From assembly GCF_018860755.1 (NCBI RefSeq), contig NZ_JAHKPW010000040.1:1-50898 (forward strand): DNA of 50,898 nucleotides. The letters are read 5' to 3'. A program made the translations under genes and the position numbers. Positions 29,508 to 34,530 of this stretch are shown one piece after another. The DNA is from Colwellia sp. D2M02 (lineage in GTDB: Bacteria > Pseudomonadota > Gammaproteobacteria > Enterobacterales > Alteromonadaceae). Position 1 is the first letter of the stretch. Every line of letters begins with the position of its first letter. Below the pieces are notes generated by a model. It was not told where the DNA came from. It saw nothing but the letters and a program-made list of their open reading frames with translations, and did no database searches.

Positions 29508-31193
29508 ATGAAAACCAACTCTTTCTCTAAAATTGCTACGGCTATATTTATAAGCTGTATTGCATTAACTGCTTGTAACTCTGATGATTCAGCAGCTGAA
29601 AACTCATTAACACAACAAAATACAGCTTCAGTTACCTTATTAGCTGGCTTTAAAAATCGTCTCGATATTTATAAAGAAGTTACTTTAACTGCTGACTTAG
29701 AACATTTATCAAGCAACCAAAAGAAAATGCTGTCGTTATTAATAGATGCTTCTAAAATAATGGATGATTTATTTTGGCAACAAGCCTTTACGCAAGATAA
29801 AGCCACATTTCTTGCTAGTATCAATGATGAAAAAGTAAGACGTTTTGCCGAAATAAATTATGGCCCTTGGGATAGACTTGATGGTGATAAAGTATTTCTT
29901 AGCCAATACACTCCCAAAAATCATGGTGCAGAGTTTTATCCTGCCGATATCACTAAGGCTGAGTTTGAACAAGCCGCAATAGAAGATAAAAAAGGACTCT
30001 ATTCTATTATCCATAGAGACGAACAAGGAGCATTAAGTACTATCGCCTACTCTGAGGTTTATCATGAACAGCTAACCCGTGCTGCAGTGATACTAAAGGA
30101 AGCAGCAAAATATGCTGACGATAAAGAGTTTGCTAATTACTTAACATTACGCGCACAAGCCCTACTTAGTGATGAATACCAAGTATCAGATTTTGCTTGG
30201 ATGGATATGAAAAATAACTTAATTGATGTAGTTATTGGCCCAATAGAAAGTTATGAAGATCAACTTTATGGCTATCGTGCAGCTTTTGAGTCATATGTAT
30301 TAATTAAAGATACGGCTTGGAGTAAAAAGCTCGAGAAATATGCGGAGTATTTACCTGAATTACAAAAAGGTTTACCTGTAGCTCAAAAATACAAAGCCGA
30401 AGTACCAGGCTCAGATGCTGACCTTAATGCTTACGATGTTGTTTATTATGCTGGCCACTCAAACGCTGGTGGTAAAACCATTGCAATTAACTTACCTAAT
30501 GATGAGGAAGTACAGTTAAAAAAAGGTACACGACGTCTACAGTTAAAAAACGCTATGCAAGCAAAGTTTGACGCTATTATGCTGCCTATAGCACAAACGC
30601 TTATTGTGCCCGAGCAGCGCAACAATGTTACTTTTACGGGCTTTTTCGCCAACACCATGTTTCACGAAGTTGCCCATGGTTTAGGCATTAAAAACACCAT
30701 TAATGATAAAGGCCCTGTAAGACAAGCACTGCAAGAGCACGCTTCAGCACTTGAAGAAGGCAAAGCTGATATTCTTGGTTTATATATGATTAAGCAGCTG
30801 TTAGAGAAAGGCGTAATTACTGAAGGTAAGTTAGAAGAATATTACACGACCTTTATGGCGGGGATCTTCCGTTCAATTCGTTTTGGCGCAACCTCCGCTC
30901 ACGGTAAAGCAAACATGGTGCGCTTTAATTATTTTCAAGAGCAAGGCGCATTTAGCCGAAATGAGCAAGGCTTATATAGTGTCAATATGGACAAAATGAC
31001 AAGCGCGATCAACTCGTTATCTGAGCTTATTTTGACGTTACAAGGTAATGGCGATTATCAAGGTGTTGACGCATTAGTTAAAAAAAGTGGCAATATTGGT
31101 GAAGTGTTAGCTGCTGATTTAGCGCGTTTAGAAACGGGTAACATACCTGTAGACATTACCTTCAAGCAAGGCAAAGACGTTTTAGGGTTATAA
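29508..31193 (+). CDS. M49-like (dipeptidyl-peptidase III-related) zinc peptidase lipoprotein
   Basis: A 561-residue lipoprotein (lipobox LTAC, Cys at about 23) with a zincin catalytic region. HEVAHGLG places His386, Glu387 and His390, and EEGKADILGLY (Glu416/Glu417) resembles the EExRAE second motif of family M49. Classical DPP III has the hexapeptide HEXXGH; the pentapeptide HEXXH form seen here is known in some bacterial members such as the Caldithrix enzyme. Its location in the periplasm or outer membrane suggests release of dipeptides from peptides made by secreted proteases. Such proteins are often annotated only as Zn-dependent hydrolase. The gene stands alone after rpsT. The family is likely; the activity is unproven. 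Confidence 0.72.
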   Translation: MKTNSFSKIATAIFISCIALTACNSDDSAAENSLTQQNTASVTLLAGFKNRLDIYKEVTLTADLEHLSSNQKKMLSLLIDASKIMDDLFWQQAFTQDKATFLASINDEKVRRFAEINYGPWDRLDGDKVFLSQYTPKNHGAEFYPADITKAEFEQAAIEDKKGLYSIIHRDEQGALSTIAYSEVYHEQLTRAAVILKEAAKYADDKEFANYLTLRAQALLSDEYQVSDFAWMDMKNNLIDVVIGPIESYEDQLYGYRAAFESYVLIKDTAWSKKLEKYAEYLPELQKGLPVAQKYKAEVPGSDADLNAYDVVYYAGHSNAGGKTIAINLPNDEEVQLKKGTRRLQLKNAMQAKFDAIMLPIAQTLIVPEQRNNVTFTGFFANTMFHEVAHGLGIKNTINDKGPVRQALQEHASALEEGKADILGLYMIKQLLEKGVITEGKLEEYYTTFMAGIFRSIRFGATSAHGKANMVRFNYFQEQGAFSRNEQGLYSVNMDKMTSAINSLSELILTLQGNGDYQGVDALVKKSGNIGEVLAADLARLETGNIPVDITFKQGKDVLGL

Positions 31194-31631: not shown

Positions 31632-33926
31632 ATGAATAAGAATAATCTCAAGTTATCACTATTATCGACCGCGATATTATTAACATTAGCGGGTTGTGGC
31701 GGTAGCGATTCAAAAACAGTTAATAAATCACCGATCGCTAAAAGCATCACTATAGAAAATGCAAAACAATGGCTGCCGGTTACTGGTACCATAAAAGTTG
31801 CCAATGCTGATGTAAGTTCATTAAAAATTACCATTATGGATAATGGACAAAAAGTTACAGGGGATAATGGCGTATACCATCTAAGTCACGGCATTCTAGA
31901 GTTAACTGGCTTAAAATTTAGCTATATATCGCTCACTGGCGAAGATAAAAAAATTAGCTATACCGCTTCTGCAAATGGTAAGTCTAGCTCAGCAAGTATT
32001 GATATTACAGGTGTTACCGGTGACCCTCTTATTAATCAACAATGGCACTTAAGAAATACTGGTCAAAAAGCCTATGCATTAAGTGATGAAATGAAAGCAG
32101 GCTTGATTTCATTATATGTAAACAATTTTGGTTGGCCAGAAGAAGCCGCTAATGAGCGTATTAGTGAGATATTCGCTATTGAAGAAGCTAAGCTAATTGC
32201 TGGTGAAGATATCAATGTTGTTGGCGCTTACAGTCAAGGGGTTACTGGTGAAGGTGTTGTTGCAGTAGTTGTAGACTCAGGTTTAGAAATTCGCCATGAA
32301 GATTTAGAGCCTAATGTTTTGCCAAATCGTTCTCTTAACTTAAACCTTGTCGCTGCTGATAAGACAGATCCAACTCCCACAGCAATTACTGGTGATCACG
32401 GTACAAGTGTTGCTGGGTTAATCGCTGCAAAAGGCTGGAATGACTTAGGTGGACAAGGCGTATCACCAGATACTAATCTAATTGGTATGAACTATTTAGG
32501 CACAGATAAAGTTCCTCAAAAAGACTATTTAATTCATGGTTTTCCAGGTAGTGGTATCTCTAAAAGCGAACCTATCGCAGTATTTAACCGTAGCTATGGT
32601 TTAGGCGAGGTCTCGACGCATTTTGGCTACTCTGAGTTAGATGAAGCTATTGAGTCTTACCCTAGCTTAGTTTTACGTAATGCTAAAGGGGCGCTAAATA
32701 TTAAATCAAGCGGCAACTCTTTTGAAGGAGGTGGCTGGGATGGCTCATTATGTGCTGATAACGGTGCCCATGAGTTAGGCTTAACTTGTTACAACGCTGC
32801 ATATGAGTCAAGTCAAGTACATCCATATTATTTAAGTGTCGGCGCAGTCAACACAGATGGTAAGCACACGAGTTATTCAACGGCTGGAGCAAACCTTTTT
32901 GTTGCCGCTCCTGCAGGTGAGTATGGACGTAATGCACCAGCAATGGTTACCACAGACCAAATGACTTGTTTGAGTGGTTACTCTGGTTTTACCGGCCGCG
33001 GGATTACAGGATGGGCTGAAGCCTATGGGGAAGATTTTGCTAAATCTCAATTCCCATTTAACTTCCCAGGTCATGATGACAATGTATCTTGTAACTACAC
33101 TTCAACATTTAATGGTACCTCATCTGCAGCACCTAATGCATCTGGCGTTATATCATTGATATTATCAGCTAATCCAGAGCTTACATGGCGTGATGTCCGT
33201 CATATTTTAGCTTCAACAAGTACTAAAAATGATCCTGATAATGCAGCAGTTACTTTCAAAGTTGGCGATACAGACTTTGTCGCTCACCAAGGTTGGATAG
33301 AAAACGCTGCTGGTTTTAACTTCAACAACTTATACGGGTTTGGCCGTGTCAACGCTGGTGAAGCGGTGAAAATGGCTAAAGCTTACACTCAAGATTTAGG
33401 CGAACAAGTTATTACTGATTGGCTTGGTGCAGGCTCTACAGCTGGTGAACCAGCATTAATGAGTGAAATCCCTGATAATAACGCAGAAGGTTTAACTTAT
33501 ACTGTTGAAGTCAGTGAAGATCTAAACTTAGAAGCTATGCAATTTAAGTTTAATGTCAGCAATATCGAAATGGGCTTTGGTTTTGAAGATGGTACTCAAA
33601 CTACCGCTGGCACCGATTTAGCCATTGAAGTAACTTCGCCTTCGGGTACAAAGAGTATGTTATTGTCTTCTAAACAAGCACTCACTGTACCTGCTAATGC
33701 CGACGGTTGGCAAGTAGGTTACATTTTAAAAGACGGCGTATTCCTATCTAATGCATTTTACGGAGAATCAAGTAAAGGCCAGTGGAGTATTCGCTTAATT
33801 GACACTAGTGGTGCAAGCTATGCCACAACAGATGGCGGTATTCTTGAACTTACTGGCTATACTAACAACGCTGTAAACAGTGTTTTAGAAGGTGTTTCTC
33901 TTAGAGCATTTGGACACGAGAAGTAG
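31632..33926 (+). CDS. S8 family serine protease lipoprotein with P/Homo B domain
   Basis: A 764-residue subtilase with a lipoprotein signal (LTLAGC, Cys at about 22). A beta-rich domain (about 30-130) replaces the usual I9 propeptide. The catalytic domain begins at DPLINQQWHLRNTGQ, the kexin-like pattern, with Asp215 (VVVDSGLE), His256 (GDHGTSVAG) and Ser497 (NGTSSAAPNASG). The C-terminus (about 615-755) is a proprotein convertase P-domain. The best-known bacterial analogue is the Aeromonas sobria serine protease ASP, which also lacks a normal propeptide and needs the small protein ORF2, encoded just downstream, to fold. A small secreted protein gene lies 7 bp downstream here. The family is firm; the specificity is unknown. 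Confidence 0.9.
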   Translation: MNKNNLKLSLLSTAILLTLAGCGGSDSKTVNKSPIAKSITIENAKQWLPVTGTIKVANADVSSLKITIMDNGQKVTGDNGVYHLSHGILELTGLKFSYISLTGEDKKISYTASANGKSSSASIDITGVTGDPLINQQWHLRNTGQKAYALSDEMKAGLISLYVNNFGWPEEAANERISEIFAIEEAKLIAGEDINVVGAYSQGVTGEGVVAVVVDSGLEIRHEDLEPNVLPNRSLNLNLVAADKTDPTPTAITGDHGTSVAGLIAAKGWNDLGGQGVSPDTNLIGMNYLGTDKVPQKDYLIHGFPGSGISKSEPIAVFNRSYGLGEVSTHFGYSELDEAIESYPSLVLRNAKGALNIKSSGNSFEGGGWDGSLCADNGAHELGLTCYNAAYESSQVHPYYLSVGAVNTDGKHTSYSTAGANLFVAAPAGEYGRNAPAMVTTDQMTCLSGYSGFTGRGITGWAEAYGEDFAKSQFPFNFPGHDDNVSCNYTSTFNGTSSAAPNASGVISLILSANPELTWRDVRHILASTSTKNDPDNAAVTFKVGDTDFVAHQGWIENAAGFNFNNLYGFGRVNAGEAVKMAKAYTQDLGEQVITDWLGAGSTAGEPALMSEIPDNNAEGLTYTVEVSEDLNLEAMQFKFNVSNIEMGFGFEDGTQTTAGTDLAIEVTSPSGTKSMLLSSKQALTVPANADGWQVGYILKDGVFLSNAFYGESSKGQWSIRLIDTSGASYATTDGGILELTGYTNNAVNSVLEGVSLRAFGHEK

Positions 33927-33933
33927 GAAAATT

Positions 33934-34470
33934 ATGATGAAATTAAATAAAATAGTAGTTCTTGCTACCAGTGTATTATTATCAACCAACGTAATGGCTC
34001 AACAAAGTCAGCTAGTTGAATTACCTAAAGCAGAGAAAGTTTCCACGAAATTTTCTCTCGATAAAACCGATTTTGGTACTTATATTATCGAAAGAGATTT
34101 AGCGTATTTACCCACTGCGATTGCTGATGTTGATGCGGTTATTGGCACAAAAGGCGCGATGTCACTGGTTAAAACTAACCAACCTATTAAGCACATCACT
34201 AAAGGAACATTAGTTAGAAATACTTTAACAAACGAGCTGGCCGCGTTATCTGGCAATATATCAGTGTTACTTAAAGAAGGAGTTTCAGCTGAACAACTAA
34301 GTGCTGAAACAGGCTTAGCAGTAGTTTCGGTTTACGAGGGTACTAAAATAGCGGTATTCAAAGTAACTGGTCAGCAAGACATAATCGCTGCCCGTAAACA
34401 ACTCGAAGAGTCAGGCTTTACCAAAGTTGTTAAAATTGAAGTATTAGACTCAATACATGTAGCTCACTAA
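33934..34470 (+). CDS. Small secreted protein, possible trans-acting propeptide/chaperone of the upstream S8 protease
   Basis: A 178-residue exported protein (signal peptide to about 22, NVMAQQ). The start at 33934 has AGGA in the 7-bp gap after the protease stop; a longer frame from 33892 would overlap that gene and lose the signal peptide. The C-terminal part (about 105-175) alternates strand, helix, strand, strand, helix, strand: SGNISVLLKEG, SAEQLSAETG, AVVSVYEGTKIAVFKV, QDIIAARKQLEESG, KVVKIEVLDSI. That is the order of the ferredoxin-like fold of subtilase propeptides. As the protease before it has no such domain, I infer a folding chaperone and inhibitor acting in trans. The fold reading is by eye; no family name is certain. 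Confidence 0.6.
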   Translation: MMKLNKIVVLATSVLLSTNVMAQQSQLVELPKAEKVSTKFSLDKTDFGTYIIERDLAYLPTAIADVDAVIGTKGAMSLVKTNQPIKHITKGTLVRNTLTNELAALSGNISVLLKEGVSAEQLSAETGLAVVSVYEGTKIAVFKVTGQQDIIAARKQLEESGFTKVVKIEVLDSIHVAH

Positions 34471-34500: not shown

Positions 34501-34530
34501 AAAATGGCGCATTAATATGCGCCATTTTTA
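34501..34530. terminator. Bidirectional terminator after the protease-chaperone pair
   Basis: AAAATGGCGCAT pairs with ATGCGCCATTTT around TAAT. T-runs occur on both strands (TTTTTA on plus, TTTTATTG on minus), so it can serve both this pair and the convergent TPR gene. Confidence 0.85.

Follow-up and report, generated by a model that had tools for sequence, protein, structure and literature searches.

The ASP protease of Aeromonas sobria is an S8/P-domain enzyme with an externally encoded chaperone, ORF2. Subtilases as a rule have an N-terminal propeptide, and a 2022 survey of them names ASP as the exception (PMC9549277). According to the available parts of PMC5638518, ORF2 inhibits ASP with a half-maximal inhibitory concentration (IC50) of 84.3 nM, and the genera named besides Aeromonas are Vibrio, Shewanella, Chromobacterium and Pseudoalteromonas. 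Here, we analyzed a locus of Colwellia sp. D2M02 (RefSeq assembly GCF_018860755.1) in which the gene for an S8/P-domain protease is followed by one for a small secreted protein; the window is the stretch of 50,898 nucleotides of contig NZ_JAHKPW010000040.1 (positions 1 to 50,898, forward strand) that contains it. With a probability of roughly 0.87, we read this two-gene unit as coding for an ASP-type protease with a lipid anchor together with an external propeptide of the ORF2 type. The homology, gene pairing, predicted fold, lipobox and intact catalytic residues behind this reading are established here.

The protease and its small neighbor

The protease matches the Pfam domains Peptidase_S8 (residues 206-570, 107.7 bits) and P_proprotein (residues 659-730, 34.0 bits), both above the Pfam cut-off, as the initial annotation had proposed from the DNA alone. 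Its top PDB matches are the structures of ASP (3hjr_A, E 3.4e-68; 3wqb_A), ahead of kexin and furin. Residues Asp215, His256, Ser497 and Asn362 are unchanged in 18 of 18 aligned sequences, and the first three correspond in the alignment to ASP residues 78, 115 and 336 (ASP numbering from the available part of PMC5638518). A Pfam search of the protease gave no match to an I9 propeptide; with S8 and P domains, the catalytic Asp/His/Ser and no N-terminal propeptide found, the enzyme is an S8/P protease of the ASP type. A short hydrophobic signal at its N-terminus ends in a lipobox (LAGC, residues 19-22). By the usual lipoprotein rules, a glycine at position +2 after the lipobox cysteine does not lead to retention in the inner membrane. 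The LAGC motif and Gly +2 found here therefore predict a lipoprotein that is not kept in the inner membrane, and the protease would be lipidated and located at the outer membrane.

The small protein matches the Pfam family of the ASP chaperone, ORF_2_N, with 51.5 bits (cut-off 29.2), and the ORF2 family alignment matches the solved ORF2 of ASP (3wqb_B) in a profile comparison with an E-value of 1.7e-25. In an AF2 model, the block of the small protein has a pLDDT of 94-98 and the tail a low one, and both the model and fold searches give the fold of solved ORF2. The small protein is thus, as judged from sequence, a diverged homologue within the ASP chaperone family, and by analogy it may serve as a chaperone and act as a temporary inhibitor. 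The initial annotation had read this gene as encoding a trans-acting propeptide, and the ORF_2_N match, the profile match to 3wqb_B, the predicted fold and the gene pairing described below all support that reading. It had also called the pair an independent or diverged version of ASP-ORF2, of which only the second word stands, as the two genes are homologues of asp and orf2 and an independent origin is ruled out.

The coordinates given in that annotation, together with the 178-residue length and the 7-base gap, proved exact; the gap runs from the protease stop to the ATG at 33934, and the small open reading frame (ORF) closes with TAA at 34470. From this spacing, the two genes probably form a single transcription unit. 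In the proposed mechanism, both proteins would be exported, after which the propeptide-like domain of the ORF2-type protein would dock onto the catalytic domain and its C-terminal tail would enter the active site, aiding folding and preventing autolysis until the small protein is removed.

Gene pairing across genomes

Within the genus, ORF_2_N was present in 3 of 39 genomes, and the protease (E 1e-30 or better) was found in the same three, a co-occurrence that the initial annotation had proposed as a check. Across the order, 41 of 394 genomes had an ORF_2_N match, 38 of them over the cut-off, and none of 14 control genomes had one. We examined 41 ORF_2_N places, comprising 39 of the 46 order-wide places and two from the genus search; the seven order-wide places left out are all from genus group g319. 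An S8/P protease lies directly upstream of ORF_2_N in 38 of the 41 (gaps of 1-82 bases, median 12; one protease, in L044, is truncated by a contig end); this holds for all 36 places above the cut-off and for 2 of the 5 under it. This pairing, together with the co-occurrence within the genus, far exceeds chance, and a chance neighborhood of the two genes is ruled out. In an evenly drawn sample of the class, only the source genome had ORF_2_N (1 of 369), so the family is patchy.

The three unpaired places are two orphan lipoproteins and a match (L074) resembling sulfite reductase. The orphans (L071:3998-4540 and L073:4080-4670, both on the minus strand) are lipoprotein-like ORFs whose ORF_2_N matches are weak (26.3 and 21.5 bits) and fall short of the cut-off. 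The roughly 4 kb around them hold no S8 protease, and they are perhaps stand-alone inhibitors or false matches. The match in genome G053 (L005, L074) was rejected, being below the cut-off and inside a gene resembling a sulfite reductase flavoprotein (named by eye).

In a reverse test, contigs were scanned with the protease alignment and the best 79 of 520 relatives were kept, a choice that biases the set toward close relatives; the set also shares a few records with those behind the ORF2 hidden Markov model (HMM). At E <= 0.01, this HMM placed ORF2 downstream of the protease in 68 of the 79 and upstream in three (L128, L145 and L146, all Bdellovibrionota). An iterated search from the 38 pairs gave 67 downstream and the same number, three, of upstream adjoining genes, the 68th downstream case being L102 (L102:4995-7890), a draft Pseudoalteromonas protease with a frame break ahead of an intact ORF2. 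The eight remaining loci include L125, whose downstream gene belongs to the fused-domain group described below, and L141 and L148, in which an ORF2-like domain is fused to the protease. In L154, ORF2 is unlinked, residing elsewhere in the same genome. L149 and L152 (Paraburkholderia) have a small secreted downstream ORF that is ORF2-like by eye but without support in profile comparison (1.6%), and these were not counted as confirmed ORF2 even though they carry a "down" label on the tree. In L122 and L123 a contig end truncates the locus, in the latter 90 bases past the protease. The downstream arrangement found here reaches past the four other genera named in the available part of PMC5638518.

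Protease and ORF2 distances are correlated over 77 pairs (Mantel r 0.765, 0 of 999 permutations; 0.43 among divergent pairs), a correlation that fits co-evolution and species history alike. Among four genomes with two pairs, three agree with partner matching (one weakly), and the fourth (L069/L070) is uninformative because both of its pairs share one nearest protease. Several loci have further copies. L072:1596-9157 holds two tandem protease-ORF2 pairs, the second protease being about 1327 residues long, and extra ORF2 HMM matches about 3 kb past the pair in L108 (10429-10900) and L112 (9255-9873) are perhaps second pairs. In L125:3-9764, a single ORF2-like gene between two S8/P proteases might serve both. 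The upstream ORF2 genes of Bdellovibrionota (L128:2552-3281, L145:4234-4990, L146:3737-4547) encode a hydrophobic N-terminal segment, which by eye resembles a membrane anchor and not a signal that would be cleaved.

Fused and upstream propeptides and the alternatives

In L141 and L148, both from metagenome-assembled genomes, the protease opens with a signal peptide, followed by a domain whose homologue in L125 is the stand-alone downstream gene (BLASTP E 3e-8 and 3e-7, respectively; 1e-25 between L141 and L148). A search of related genomes brought the fusions to three with L176 and revealed stand-alone upstream genes in L164, L165, L174, L175, L177, L178 and L179. Over the relatives seen, ORF2 is mostly downstream; it is upstream in Bdellovibrionota and in part of the Gammaproteobacteria, unlinked in one relative and fused in three. 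The genome bearing L148 holds one fused and one upstream-split copy. Alignment A3, run on an evenly drawn sample of the class that holds the L141 genome, matched 1 of 274 genomes, the L141 genome itself, and alignment A5 matched 4 of 244 genomes in the order of the L148 genome. All nine separate proteins of the fused-domain group terminate at one alignment column, past which the fused ones run on and beyond which they were cut for alignment; this shared end, near residue 175 of L148, would be the propeptide cleavage site in the fused forms.

It is improbable, at somewhat under one chance in ten, that the fused N-terminal domains arose independently of ORF2, as a separately acquired ferredoxin-like fold. 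The profile alignment shows 8% identity, and the fold match by itself is unspecific. The top Foldseek match of the fused-domain model is 3wqb_B with an E-value of only 0.037, and polymerases tie with it in VIA. The fused-group profile has no match among PDB sequences. Against an independent fold, the three fused domains alone match the ORF2 family with an hhalign probability of 94.1% (E 1.3e-7, score 48.7), and the 12-member alignment of fused and separate forms does so with 95.9% (E 5e-9), compared with a maximum of 0.9% (maximum score 16.6) in 150 column shuffles of the latter and 0.1% for its reversal. The ORF2 HMM, run on a small set of chosen loci, also matches the fused L176 domain directly (E 3.2e-5), and the fused domains occupy the same position in the same protease family while their clear relatives are separate neighboring genes.

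An alternative in which the small protein chiefly works on its own as a periplasmic inhibitor, shielding the cell from the anchored protease, and is dispensable for folding, is also unlikely, if slightly less so. Stand-alone propeptide-like inhibitors such as SUB1-ProM exist (PMC6993865, available part), and the IC50 cited above shows that ORF2 can inhibit, but this explanation leaves the protease without a visible propeptide, and relatives carry the same domain fused at the propeptide position. Far less probable is a folding segment within the N-terminal beta domain of the protease, with the small gene an unrelated neighbor. There is room for one in the 108 residues separating Cys22 from the start of the conserved protease region. 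This beta region itself has no Pfam match above the cut-off, whereas the equivalent region of homologue L062 matches the bacterial Ig domain Big_9 (36.8 bits against a cut-off of 23.6), and the aligned Ig region showed no likeness to ORF2 (hhalign probability 0.1%) and no hhalign match to fused-prodomain profiles, ruling out a concealed propeptide and bearing out the early claim that the protease lacks one of its own. As the beta domain is missing from six unanchored relatives that retain ORF2, and the genes are paired, a folding role for it is already mostly contradicted.

The source protease was placed among its relatives with a quick, unrooted IQ-TREE tree of the catalytic parts of 96 rows (L102, L123 and L117 left out). 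It falls within a clade of 26 rows that each have ORF2 downstream, among them Pseudoalteromonas, Alteromonas, Rheinheimera, Idiomarina and others, and the fused and upstream forms sit in another 26-row clade. The fused label changes twice on the tree, with well-supported branches compelling one change; being unrooted, the tree gives no ancestral arrangement. Of 77 named proteases (omitting L102 and L123), 43 had a lipobox in a simple scan, as did 20 of 38 in another, overlapping set. All 25 named rows of the source clade are positive, so the lipobox noticed in the initial annotation is present but marks a large clade and is no peculiarity of this genome. The unanchored secreted ASP subgroup has a signal without a lipobox, which the source protease does not, and its sequence predicts an anchored variant outside that subgroup. 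In the fusion-bearing clade, a laxer motif scan, leaving out the long first protease of L125, found a lipobox in 0 of 3 fused versus 8 of 9 split or unlinked forms (Fisher 0.018, ignoring kinship); L154, one of the eight, is negative in the stricter scan.

Judging from these relatives, the chaperone is a propeptide, and its gene shifted among upstream, fused and downstream positions. If a cis-propeptide is cut away, an N-terminal anchor would be lost with it. We tentatively suggest, at a little less than even odds, that the S8/P propeptide moved between cis and trans (N-terminal fusion, upstream, downstream and unlinked) and that splitting freed the mature N-terminus, which would let the mature enzyme retain its anchor as the lipid-anchored, stalked form that a cleaved cis-propeptide forbids.

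Locus features and comparison with known systems

The features of the locus are collected in the table below. The region has 3 terminator-like sites against 2.5 expected by chance and 17 promoter-like sites against 11.4 (standard deviation 3.6), the latter not clearly exceeding chance. The upstream neighbor (29508-31193) encodes an M49-family peptidase (59.8 bits) with a lipobox-like signal by eye, making it a second predicted lipoprotein peptidase adjoining the pair.

Table 1. Positions of predicted features of the protease-ORF2 locus within the window
Feature	Position	Strand	Basis
S8/P-domain (kexin-like) protease ORF, predicted lipoprotein, ASP homologue, 764 aa	31632..33926	+	Pfam PF00082, PF01483; PDB 3hjr_A E 3.4e-68
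Lipoprotein-type signal with lipobox LAGC (residues 19-22; Cys22 at 31695-31697; Gly +2)	31632..31697	+	Sequence
Beta domain, probably a bacterial Ig/cadherin-like stalk, without propeptide likeness	31698..32021	+	Big_9 match of L062; hhalign against ORF2 negative
Catalytic domain with Asp215, His256, Ser497, Asn362	32022..33341	+	Alignment
P-domain core match, residues 659-730	33606..33821	+	PF01483
Putative ORF2-type external propeptide/chaperone, 178 aa, Sec-type signal peptide (by eye)	33934..34470	+	Pfam ORF_2_N
C-terminal segment of ORF2-type protein	34237..34449	+	AF2 model, fold searches
C-terminal tail of ORF2-type protein, low pLDDT	34450..34467	+	AF2 model; active-site entry expected by analogy with ASP-ORF2 (PMC5638518, available part)
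Near-palindromic terminator-like hairpin 3' of small gene, 12 pairs	34501..34528	reported for minus	Hairpin scan

In the literature covered, from which subscription papers were mostly absent, we saw no description of an ORF2 fused to or upstream of the protease, or of members with a lipid anchor. What is new beyond the known system is the cis-trans series of propeptide positions. The ASP "exception" is a broad family, with about half of the scanned members carrying a lipobox that secreted ASP lacks; in some relatives, what is apparently this chaperone is an ordinary propeptide fused to the protease. This family offers natural material for testing propeptide needs in cis and in trans, and the reasons for splitting.

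The Colwellia pair itself is a variant of the known ASP-ORF2 system with a predicted lipid anchor and mostly of a known kind. It shares with ASP/ORF2 (PDB 3hjr, 3wqb, 2mk4) a propeptide-less S8/P protease with the ORF2 gene directly downstream and a propeptide-like fold, and ASP/ORF2 are the best PDB matches for both proteins. The source protease departs from ASP in its lipobox, its beta domain of roughly 108 residues and an insertion that follows QWHLRNTGQ; its identity is 37-38% with five unanchored relatives and 32% with L039 (group g319, probably Aeromonas), and its ORF2 has 178 residues compared with 151-155 in that group. In contrast to the propeptides of subtilisin and proprotein convertases (1spb_P, 3cnq_P, 9fid_D), the propeptide here is a separate gene, and it differs from the stand-alone inhibitors SUB1-ProM, TgMIC5 and POIA1 in that those act on proteases having propeptides of their own.
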